From: Sipunculus nudus
Taxonomy: Eukaryota > Annelida > Sipuncula > Golfingiida > Sipunculidae
Direction of reading: 5' to 3'
DNA: 64,000 bases
NCBI GenBank assembly: GCA_026874595.1
Contig: CM049314.1
Coordinates: 38,111,229-38,175,228, forward strand
Below, in pieces: positions 24,175 to 36,100 of the stretch. Below the pieces are notes generated by a model that did not search any database, was not told the DNA's origin, and saw only the letters and a list, made by a program, of their open reading frames with translations. Positions within the stretch are counted from its first letter, which is position 1. Each line of letters opens with the position of its first letter. The translations under genes and the position numbers were made by a program.

Positions 24175-27100
24175 ATGTCTGGGAGAAATAAACGTCTTGA
24201 ACTTCAGGAATATGAGAAACCTCTGGTAATGGCAGAGGGACCGATACCGAAAGCCCCATCAGGTGGCGCAGTTGTCAAGGTAAAATTAGACTTTTATTCA
24301 ATTGTTCAAATTGTATCAATATTCCTGGTTATAACAAAAGTACATTTTCAATAGAAAAGGGATTTTCCTCTTCGGAGGATGTTATATATAAAAAGGGTTT
24401 CCTTTTGTCTATGGTGTATATCAAACTAAAAAAACAGGCAATAACAGAAGAAACGATAATACTTATGTTGTGCTTATTTTTGGGATATTGCAATGTTAAA
24501 ATCAAGAGTCAACATTGACTTGGAGGTAACGCTTCTCTTGTTTAGGACATTATCTTTTGTCCATGACAACCTGATTTCACAAGTTGTAAACTATTCATCT
24601 CTTCAAAAGAGACATTTTCGGAGAAGGGGTTGGCACTTACGTTGTGCCTTTTGTCGGGATTATGCAATATAAATATCTTTAGTCTTCAGTGGTGCTATGG
24701 TCTAGGAATAGTGCACAAACCTTACAAACTGTGGAGAAACAATAAAAGGAAGATAATGAGTTTGCATCTCAGCCGAGGTGTGGTTAGATTTGTCACGGTC
24801 GGCTCCCATTCCTCATTTGAAGACTGGGAACGTGTTCAACCGTGACTGAAGCCTTGATATACTCACATACGAGTGCGCTTTGCGTGAATTCCATGATGTT
24901 AGGACCAAGCGACGAAGATGATTACACGACCAGGACCCGCAGGTGCCGAACATCGAGCCTGGTTGACGTAAAGATAATCGTGTCCTGCCGCCCTGTCATG
25001 TAGTTTGAAACGGAAATGGAATTTGTTGATATCATAATTATTAACGTTGTAGAAAGAATTTAACCCCGGTTCGTATTTAGGCAAGTAACAGAACTAAAAT
25101 AGATTACAAATCACAATGGACAATAATACCATTGTCAATAAAGCTTTGTATTCTTCTTAATGCTTTTCTCAACATTCGGATTTTCTGTACAGCGTATCAG
25201 TAATATTTTGTATGATTGATTCATTACTTGCAACGTAGTTTTGTCAAACACATAACATATAGAATATACCATTTTATTCATTTTCTTTTAAACTGTAGAC
25301 TTGATATTAAATATTTGATGTTCCTATTGTAGATTCATTACGCAGGGGTCTGTCATTCTGACTTGCATGCTTTGTACGGTTGTATGCCAACCATCGATGA
25401 GGAAGAAAAACTGAGATCGCTCTTCAAACTGCCGGTTGTATTAGGTAACATTACAGAGTCATTGACAGGTGGATTTAAGTGTGCAAAATGTCAATTCCAT
25501 GTTTTGTTTGATCAGTGTATACATATGGTTATGTATTTAAGACGTTGGATAATACATTATTCATACAAGTAATTATTAGTATCAAAATCTTACATTTTTA
25601 ATTTACGATATATCAAGATATTATCCTGCGTAGCATTGCTGCAGAACGGATTACCAATGTCTTTCGGTAGTACGCGTTTATTGTTTATTTTTCTTTTTGT
25701 AACAAATTAATTTTATTGCCAGTGGTCATGTATTATTTTGTATGACTAGTAGCTCTTGGTTAATAGATTACCTAAAGAGGCGTACATCTAGTAAAATAGA
25801 ATGTGACCTACTATATTTTAGGCCATGAGATGGCCGGGGAGATATACGAGCTAGGATCCAACGTTGATAAAGGTAACTGATTAAACATTTACTTATTTTA
25901 CCAACAGTGTAATTTTGTCAAGAAGATGTCCATTTAAGTACCTTTCCTTGCAAAGTAATTTAACTACCTAATAGAAGAACAAAACAAACCTGATCAAAAC
26001 TGTCATTCATTCAAAGGTGATCAAACCTGTTTTTCATTGATTTTGATAGCCACGAGAGTTATCAAGTAATATTAATTTTTCCAATCGAAATATTCATGAC
26101 TATGCAAAGGCTGAAGGCTTCATATCTAAGCGGGAAACAAATGCCAATTAGTGTTTTGTCATTTGTCAAAAATATTTTCCCCTTTGAAACATTAAAACTA
26201 TATAAAAACGAATACATTATTAAAGCTTACTTGCTAAATGGCATTCCAATGCGATGTATATATCTTTGAAGTTTAAGGTGTTACAGGTGCTCTTTTTATT
26301 ATGTGACACGGGCGTAACTCCTGATGTGGCACTCGTGTCTGGCCGCGTATTACATTCTATGTTTAATCCGTACTGGTTGAACTCTCGTGTCAAGTTTAGC
26401 CTTGGGTTTTCACGCCTGGCCGAGGTCACGTGATGAGCCTGGTATGTAGAGATACACAGCGCTGTTTTTCTAGAGAATTCCTGAAACGCGTGTTGTTCAA
26501 GATCATATGGACTGTTCAAGAAGTGGAAAATTCTCGGCTTGGGGTGTGAAGGTATATAAGGGGGTTGTGTTTTAGAACCAGGCAGAGAGAGAACAGCAGA
26601 GCAGATTCCAGCGGACGCAGAAGCGTGTGTAAGTTTCTAGGACGTGATATGTATATATTAGGTTCCGTAACATAAAAATGGGGGCTCTCGTCGGGATGTT
26701 AATAGGTTTCAAATTTATTAGGCGTTGACCTGGACATTGTTTTATCATACATTGTTTTCAAGATTACATATTCTTTACAGTACATTGTTTACAGGATTTA
26801 TCTCAGTGGTTTTTTTTTTGTTATTATTTTGACATCTTTACATGGCAAGATTTCAAACCTGAGACATTTGTTGAGGATCACGTCCCTGATCAACTTGAAC
26901 AGTTGTCAAAAGACCAGTTTTGCATTTGGGACAACACTTAGGGCTAAGTGTGAAAAAAGCTTTGAGAAAGCCTGATATCATTGATAAAATCATGCAAGAT
27001 CTAGTTAGCAAAGGTTTAATTGAAGAGACTGAAGTTGAAACATCAAAAAATGACAGCCTTGCTGTGCAATTAGAATTGAAAAAGTTGGAAATGCAACCTG

Positions 27101-33100: not shown

Positions 33101-36100
33101 TGCTGTTACAAGAAGGCAATGATAGCATAGATCATCCAATTTGTTATTTCTCAAGAAAGTTTAATGCAAACCAGAAAAAACTACTCCACTATTGAAAAAG
33201 AATGTTTGGCTTTGATTTTGGCGTTGCAACATTTTGAAGTTTATGTTACTTCCTCTGTCAGGCCTATCATTGTCTTCACTGATCACAATCCCCTCACGTT
33301 CATGAACAAGTTTAAGTGTAAAAACCAAAGTTTGTTGAGATGGAGTTGGTTCTTACAGGATCACAATCTTGATATCATACACATTAAAGGGAAAGACAAT
33401 CTACTTCCTAATTGCTTATCGAGATGTTTATGATATGTTGTAAACAAGATGTTTATGTAATGTTGTAAATAAGATGATTTTTGGGGGGCTGTGGATATAA
33501 GGGGGGCGGTGTTTTAGAACCAGGCAGAGAGAGAACAGCAGAGCAGATTCCAGCGGACGCAGAAGCGTGTGTCAGTTTCTAGGACCTTATCCGACGAATG
33601 CGGCAATTAAAGTTGTTCTAAGGCTTTCTCCTGGACTTTATGCATTTAGACTTCAGTTTACTTTCTCAATTGTTGCAAGAGCTTTACACTGGACTGTCAT
33701 TCTCCGAGAGATTACAGTTAAAGGACTTATCCTTGTGATGGTGTTGGTATCCAGGTACTTTGCACATTATTTTTCTATGTGATTGTATTGACTTGTTGTT
33801 ATACCGCTGTTTTACTGTATAATTATATTGATTTAGTGTATTGTAATGTAAAGGTTGTTTTAAGAATAAATTATAGTTTTTTGTTAACAAAAAACCACTG
33901 ACTTCTTTATTCATTCCCCTAGACATTTCACGCTGCCTAGTGTTACAGAATCTGATTTACTTTCTCCATTACAAAGTTTGTGTTCATCACGCATACGTGA
34001 TCTGTTTATATTAGGTTCCGTAACAAAGGTTAATAATGAAACAATAATCTACTGCAGTGAATTATACACATATGCATGAATATTTTCCTCTTTCATCCGT
34101 TTAAATGTACATTCATTTGAAGGTGGTCAAACCACTGTGACTGCCAGAGTGGTCTTTTAATATTTACTTTGCCAATTGAAATATCTATGACTACCTTGAA
34201 CACTGGGTATCGATGTGGAAACATCAGTTATAGCAGCGAACTGTGGATGATAGGAGGGGTATCCTTCGGTTCCGTATATCTTCGATTTAAGCAATGCACT
34301 GTAACAAGAATTTTTCTCCATGAACATGAATAATTCCAGTAACACTATATGGAACATATACAGATTTACAAAATTTTAGGCGTTTGTGTACTTTGGAATT
34401 CCTGTAAATCGTTGATAGTATCTGGTATGGAGAGTTTCGTTCGTTTTCAACAGTTCTATTCCTCTCCTTAAGCTTTTTAGACGTCTTTTTTAAGGGTTCA
34501 ACTTTTTTTAACTTGAAATCTCAATAGCCCTATAGGTGACAATATGTATGTTTACTTAAAATGTCTTGAATACAGATTCCTGTGGATTCAACATCGGTGA
34601 TAGGGTGATGGTTTACAGCTGGGCTGGCTGTGGAGAGTGTAGATATTGCAGAGGAGGAGAAAATCTGCATTGCCCGAACATGGTTACATCCTGTTATGGA
34701 TGGGCCTACGAAGGCGGGTAAGCCTTGCGTCAGCATATTGGTCGATTGCATTTCTTGATGCCAGATGAATGGACATAAGTTGGGCACATCTGTATCTTAT
34801 CCGGTCATGTATGGAATGATTTTTTTATTAGAATTATTATTACCTGAATGTACATTGTACTAATTGCATTAATATTAAGGGCCTGCACATTCGAAGGGCA
34901 AAACGCTGGGCGCCCTGTGCCGGGACCTGGGTTCGGGTTTTAGTTGCCCATCCAAGGTCGTTTTTTCTTAGGATCCTCCGGTTTAATTCACCACCAAAGA
35001 CTATCAAACGCAACATATCCGTGCAATGGAGAGTGCTTCGGATCAGTCATTATAACTAGATGTACAATCCATGTAAAATAAGTAAAGATTATGAATGTTT
35101 TTTTATATTTGACGGTTATTGCATTGTTAATCTATAATAAAATGATAACGCTCTCGCTACCAACTATTGCTCTTAACTTGTTGAAATATTTCCCCACATA
35201 TGAAGTGCGCGGTCGACCTTTTAGCTGTATATACTGTAGGGTCTATGGATTTTGACCCAATATCGTTTTGGTATGTGTAATGGTTCAGCAGATGATATTC
35301 TATATCTTCCAGCTTTCAAGAGTACGTGAAGGTGATAAATGTGTCCCACCTTAGTCATGTGCCGGAAGGTATCCCAATGGACATTGCGGCACTCATCCCC
35401 TGCAGCGCTATCACCGGATACAGCGCGGTCATGAAAATAAAGCCAGTGGTTGAGAAATTCAGCAAGTTCATGGGCAAGTATGCATTTATACGAAATTAAG
35501 CCATTTTCCCACAGTGGTGAAACTGGAATTATTTATTAATTACAAATCCTGGTGGAGGGCAGTTTGGAGTGTCTGCCAACTACACTGTACATTGAAAGGA
35601 CTGGCTTAGGATCTAAACGCATCAGGCAATGGCCTTAGCTGTCTGACTTTTACTAAATTTCTTAAACTAAATTAGGAAATATGAGGATTGCGTGCCTTCT
35701 AATTCGAAATTGCCATAGCATGAGCAGATACATCGGTACATTAGAGAACAAAGAGAGAAGGGTAATAAATCTCACAGCTAGTCTCTGCGATATGAATAAA
35801 TGGCATGCCCTTCTGTTAAATTGAGGGCTTACTGGTAAAACGTAGGATGAAATGCTGAAAGTAAGGTACCGAAATGACATGAAATAAACTTTCATTAACA
35901 CCTTTGTTGATAAGTCATGATTACGCATACTCTGATATAATGAAAAAAAAATCCACAAAACCGGAATTGTTCATTCAAACCTATTATAAACAAAGAAAGT
36001 AGTTTTAGTGGGTTTTATATATTCAGATGAGGTTGCAATCCTGATCGTTGGGGCCGGCGGTGTTGGTCTGTGGGGGATCCAGATTGCTAAAGCTGTAATG

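Follow-up and report, generated by a model that had tools for sequence, protein, structure and literature searches.

The systems closest to the element analyzed here are the Gmr1-like Ty3/Gypsy retrotransposons, a group that was reportedly described by Goodwin and Poulter in 2002 and includes Gmr1 of Gadus morhua. Like members of this group, the element at positions 26279-34025 of a 64,000-nucleotide stretch of DNA (the window) encodes its integrase upstream of a Ty3-type reverse transcriptase (RT), carries a SCAN-type capsid (CA) and has long terminal repeats (LTRs). It differs from Gadus morhua Gmr1 in its host, which is probably an invertebrate. At a GC content of 36.7%, the window has a CpG ratio of 0.79, unlike the vertebrate value of about 0.2. 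The likeness to Gmr1 itself is one of described features. The SCAN fold is helical, similar to the C-terminal domain of CA, and dimeric. Vertebrate host proteins with a SCAN domain retain only this part, whereas the SCAN domain in the window is the C-terminal half of an element capsid with the N-terminal half still attached.

Several published observations frame the comparison. The group of Goodwin and Poulter is cited in PMC6238403 and PMC8220671. SCAN and the C-terminal portion of Gmr1-like capsids are homologous, and the vertebrate domain is held to derive from one of them (PMC4592553). The domain is present in more than half of the frog Gmr elements (PMC4131045), and it has a core fold in common with the Ty3 capsid (PMC6525542). 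Among protostomes, the crustacean elements GyRex4, Gychoro2, GyMaja1 and GyLiva4 are Gmr1-like and were called the first of their kind in this group of animals (PMC3587641). The annelid family LGF3 was assigned to the Gmr1 clade (PMC8220671), and a later annelid study did not find it (PMC8556966). The window element resembles the crustacean elements and LGF3, which their authors place in the Gmr1 clade and which have protostome hosts, but the comparison is again one of descriptions, and the available parts of PMC3587641 and PMC8220671 mention no SCAN capsid. For molluscs, PMC6238403 (2018) names Gmr1 only as an exception, and the clade table in its available text has no Gmr1 clade. The Cigr-1 and MolGy clades treated there are Gypsy elements too, and some of them may be the integrase-first group under another name; per-clade gene order is not part of the text available. 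No report of SCAN-type capsids in mollusc Gypsy elements was found in the open-licence literature, in a search partly swamped by other terms.

We consider it very probable that the window element is a decayed member of a many-copy Gmr1-like, integrase-first Ty3/Gypsy family whose capsid has a SCAN-type C-terminal domain. It is best read as Gmr1-like on the strength of gene order and capsid type, the Gmr1 group having been compared by description. An earlier note on this DNA had proposed such an element in what looked like a mollusc, and had presented it as widening the setting in which the SCAN ancestor can be traced. The element itself stands as proposed: it is an integrase-first Ty3/Gypsy element with what the profiles identify as a genuine SCAN-type capsid, and it has relatives of the same order. 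The novelty of the setting is smaller than the note suggested: protostomes have already yielded published Gmr1-like elements (PMC3587641, PMC8220671), and the window element would be a new member of a known group. What is added is that several divergent integrase-first families in one genome have a SCAN-type capsid, while the single family tested with the ordinary order (integrase downstream of RT) does not.

The capsid evidence comes from profile comparisons. The window CA matches the Pfam SCAN family with an E-value of 3e-13 (49.8-50.4 bits against a cut-off of 27), while its match to Ty3_capsid stays below the cut-off of that family. The region that had been called SCAN-like is, judged by its profile match, a genuine SCAN-type capsid. 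All 15 aligned CA members, the window included, match SCAN, and 7 of them match Ty3_capsid as well. A genome-wide SCAN search also lists the window domain, at the same coordinates. When a mixed profile made from the CA of three families was compared with the PDB at E<=1, the only four sequences returned were vertebrate SCAN domains, namely those of ZNF24 (3lhr, 2.4e-5), PEG3 (4bhx, 0.0053), ZNF174 (1y7q, 0.0062) and ZNF42 (2fi2, 0.031), which by profile are homologous domains of 80-90 residues. A single-sequence PDB search with the window CA gave no match up to E 1. It is the mixed-family profile that ties the window CA to solved SCAN structures; the Pfam match does not depend on it.

The catalytic residues named in the earlier note (D29446, D29623, E29731 and the YIDD motif at 32637) all translate as stated, and both the zinc-binding domain and the catalytic core of integrase lie upstream of the RT match. 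The integrase has a spacing of 35 residues between its second D and its E, and its core can be aligned with the solved integrase of prototype foamy virus (PFV; 2.3e-13) and more weakly with that of Ty3 (8.9e-5). The RT is of the Ty3/Gypsy type, with yeast Ty3 providing its two best solved relatives (6.8e-40 and 6e-39). The protease remnant has no Pfam match of its own up to E 10. Both of its pieces are matched in 7 of 8 related copies and the first piece only in L041 (loci and contigs are given by L and C numbers), and the protease of the L077 family matches Asp_protease_2 at 1e-5.

To place the window copy among its relatives, the genome (1.43 Gb in 153 contigs) was searched with SCAN. From 2198 first-look candidates, 150 matches were scored and all 150 were above the cut-off, at least one of them (L077) belonging to another family. 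None was found among 14 control genomes, which says little since the named controls are prokaryotes. Each of the 34 distinct loci that were compared (30 taken from the SCAN search, 4 fetched in addition) is 76-94% identical to the window CA; the window copy belongs to a family of many copies. The median Kimura two-parameter divergence of the CA-part DNA is 0.062 (465 pairs among 31 copies including the window), a value that is no census of copy ages because the copies are the best-scoring ones. Gene order was read in eight fetched 8-kb stretches holding relatives. CA, protease, integrase and RT follow in this order in 7 of the 8, as does RNase H where the locus reaches that far; the L045 stretch is cut off within RT, and L042 shows CA and protease only. 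Integrase precedes RT in all seven loci holding both domains, so this order belongs to the family as a whole. A search of viral contigs with the window RT, CA and integrase found no relatives.

Other families in the genome extend this picture. Among the 30 best RNase H loci, integrase lies only upstream of RT in 25 and only downstream in 5, numbers that describe a high-scoring sample with many near copies (150 loci scored of 7299 candidates) rather than a genome count. Two integrase-first families outside the window family have gag proteins matching SCAN. In the first (L077, 1e-12), the gag adjoins L080 (integrase) and L067 (RT and RNase H) on contig C3. In the second (L078, 9.7e-12, with zf-CCHC at 2.7e-6), the SCAN frame shares one 1594-residue open frame with the RNase H of L055, as judged by coordinates. 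Their CAs are 34% and 33% identical to that of the window, respectively, so that a SCAN-type CA is present in three divergent integrase-first families. A gag from an ordinary-order family (L079, of the L052 family) matches Retrotrans_gag at 9.7e-9 and, as the single control gag, shows no SCAN at E up to 1. The presence of a SCAN-type capsid in no fewer than three divergent families with this order, all from one probably invertebrate genome, suggests that it characterises the element group and did not appear late, in vertebrates. Such a genome offers an outgroup set, probably from an invertebrate, in which the origin of SCAN and the capsid features that were retained can be followed. Clade surveys made from RT and RNase H alone may hide integrase-first elements under other names.

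Some results weigh against this reading. A profile made from near copies only reached ZNF24 at E 0.21, level with three unrelated yeast MMS21 rows. Single-sequence models of the capsid were poor, with a predicted local distance difference test score (pLDDT) of 44 for the whole CA and 70 for the SCAN part alone; Foldseek gave a best E of 2.8 with the capsid model, and VIA-align returned 13 rows, none of them a capsid or SCAN. Because the models are too poor and gave no usable structure match, no claim is made about the fold. In the tree of RT sequences (31 rows; of 38 loci, 9 were excluded for a short or missing RT match), the integrase-first rows fall into three groups and the two ordinary families make up one, to which the window family is joined with support of 76/92. 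The tree of integrase sequences (16 rows; of 18 loci, 4 were excluded for short pieces; long-branch warning) separates all integrase-first rows by one branch with support of only 59/71. Both trees were built from sequences of this genome, with ordinary Gypsy represented by two families only. RT hits L001-L008 were excluded, six with long frames being like long interspersed nuclear elements by eye and two having no long frame on the translated strand. In piecewise comparisons, the window RT matches ordinary L052 (205 bits) as well as integrase-first L047 (202 bits). The integrase core scores 95-102 bits on integrase-first loci vs 34-69 on ordinary ones, but integrase-first L068 gives 54 bits (over 59 residues), within the ordinary range. 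For the integrase C-terminal part the values are 60-81 vs 30-31 bits, with partial matches to L047 and L055 at only 32 and 36. RNase H scores 74-82 bits on integrase-first and 56-64 on ordinary loci, and the window CA matches L077 and L078 and not the ordinary gag L079. By these scores, the integrase, RNase H and CA pieces fit the integrase-first families better, and RT is non-discriminating.

These comparisons bear most directly on the possibility that the integrase-first order was no single event. The window family would then have gained the order independently, or acquired its RT by exchange with a Gypsy lineage of ordinary order, while keeping its SCAN-type capsid and Gmr1-like integrase. 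The grouping in the RT tree and the RT scores speak for such a history. However, a tree constrained to a single integrase-first clade was not rejected (p-AU, from the approximately unbiased test, 0.284), both parts of the integrase and RNase H favour integrase-first loci, some partial matches apart, and CA matches two other integrase-first families but not the one ordinary gag, in a sample that held two ordinary families. We regard this history as unlikely. If it were true, the inherited core of the group would be capsid and integrase rather than RT.

A second alternative is that the SCAN match reflects a generic capsid fold common to all Gypsy elements. The core fold that Ty3 CA and SCAN have in common (available text of PMC6525542) and the additional Ty3_capsid matches of some family members would be in keeping with this. 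Yet all 15 aligned members match SCAN, the window score is far above the cut-off, the one ordinary gag tested in the same genome matches Retrotrans_gag instead, and the mixed profile retrieves nothing but SCAN domains from the PDB, which makes a generic fold a very improbable explanation. A rearrangement of an ordinary Gypsy element might be suspected in view of the broken state and foreign insertion of the window copy, but this is refuted by the seven fetched relatives with integrase before RT, and in the window and in copy L044 an LTR, not integrase, comes after RNase H, leaving the idea next to no credibility. Domestication of the CA as a host SCAN gene is similarly far-fetched, for although its frame is open over 248 residues, it lies between LTRs with a decayed pol, the frames on either side are broken, and the CAs of other copies are alike.

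For the integrase-first SCAN-capsid family preferred here, a conventional replication cycle can be proposed. A gag capsid of two CA domains would assemble the particle, with the SCAN-type half possibly serving as the dimer domain. The protease would cut the polyprotein and free the enzymes, and the order of integrase and RT within it need therefore not change the cycle. Reverse transcription would be primed by a tRNA at the site beside the left LTR. Insertion of the cDNA would be the task of the integrase, encoded 5' of RT; the 4-bp target duplication that goes with it is itself seen at the locus.

Table 1. Features of the element and related sequences in the window (PBS, primer-binding site).
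Feature	Coordinates	Strand	Remarks
Solo LTR, same group	1482..2177	+	5' end not delimited
5' target-site duplication AAGG, 4 bp	26275..26278		3' copy at 34026-34029
Left LTR, TG...CA	26279..26672	+	about 400 nt of right LTR missing
Probable PBS	26679..26697	+	6 nt past left LTR, read from sequence
N-terminal gag remnant, Glu/Lys-rich	26899..27225	+	reading frame
Gag capsid (CA) frame, 248 aa	27231..27977	+	open frame, SCAN match
SCAN-type C-terminal half of CA	27489..27758	+	Pfam PF02023, 3e-13
CCHC zinc-knuckle remnant	27954..27989	+	spans frame break; 12-residue stretch in frame in copy L009
Aspartic protease remnant, two frames	28465..28862	+	recognised via related copies
Integrase zinc-binding domain (Integrase_H2C2, PF17921)	29214..29369	+	Pfam 1.7e-15
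Integrase catalytic core, DD35E	29371..29754	+	Pfam rve 2.3e-11; D29446, D29623, E29731
Integrase C-terminal part, up to insertion	29755..30180	+	matched in related copies
Foreign insertion	30181..31815		TTAA-flanked, with matching terminal inverted repeats; within integrase tail
Reverse transcriptase, frame-broken, YIDD 32637-32648	32210..33122	+	Pfam RVT_1 1.1e-25 at 32466-33122
RNase H (RT_RNaseH, PF17917)	33131..33433	+	Pfam 6e-18
Right LTR	33437..34025	+	about 210 nt of 5' end missing; directly 3' of RNase H
Solo LTR, same group	52129..52978	+	LTR match in window

The coordinates of all features are collected in Table 1. The element is an LTR retrotransposon on the plus strand with the order gag(CA)-protease-integrase-RT-RNase H-LTR, and the boundaries given in the earlier note proved exact (AAGG, TGTTAC...GTAACA, AAGG). 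The match of the left LTR within the right one starts at about 33436, after the end of RNase H at 33433. Because the right LTR of the window has lost its 5' end, copy L044 is the better witness for the spacing between RNase H and LTR; there the LTR match begins 136 nt past the RNase H match, and the LTR pair is 93.3% identical over 788 columns. The roughly 400 nt absent from the left LTR are present in the right LTR and in both solo LTRs. The probable primer-binding site is presumably tRNA-Pro-like; the stretch 3' of the LTR is similar to it in L045 and different in L041. Gag, protease, integrase and RT are each spread over several frames, and the gag remnant upstream of CA matches no Pfam family above the cut-off. 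The window copy is dead: its reading frames are interrupted, each LTR is truncated, and a foreign insert separates the integrase tail from RT. The ends of this insert look piggyBac-like. Where both flanks of the site are visible, as in seven fetched copies, the gap between the matched pieces is about 480-520 nt, vs 2120 nt in the window.

Other integrase-first copies (L069, L071, L074, L075 and L076) have a long integrase frame (428 residues in L069), but their best RT match covers only residues 129-212 of the window RT, past the active site. They end in a 205-residue frame that is listed in about 60 of the 150 RNase H rows. Copies ending in this frame may be deletion derivatives multiplied by the enzymes of fuller copies. 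RT matches of near-equal score cluster densely at about 13.0-13.3 Mb of contig C3 and about 19.2-19.3 Mb of contig C14, and these clusters are perhaps tandem or nested retroelement arrays.

With regard to host markers, neither the mollusc haemocyanin domain (PF14830) nor the annelid erythrocruorin linker (PF16915) was found in the genome, and the controls were silent also. The mollusc host suggested in the earlier note is one possibility; the chromosome-sized contigs (C1-C17) and the GC content would at most hint at a bivalve. Elsewhere in the window, an exon encoding a TNF-ligand domain lies at 454-960 on the minus strand (Pfam 8.9e-23). A frame at 7402-7902 on the same strand has a membrane-spanning look by eye and no Pfam match, and may be the first exon of the TNF-ligand gene. 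A 324-residue frame at 16319-17290 on the plus strand matches innexin weakly, with an E-value of 5.9e-4 that does not reach the cut-off. Finally, an inverted repeat at 36703-37157 with 165-nt arms of 90% identity adjoins long TA repeats, and each of its arms contains a tRNA-like sequence (36733-36805 on the minus and 37055-37127 on the plus strand).

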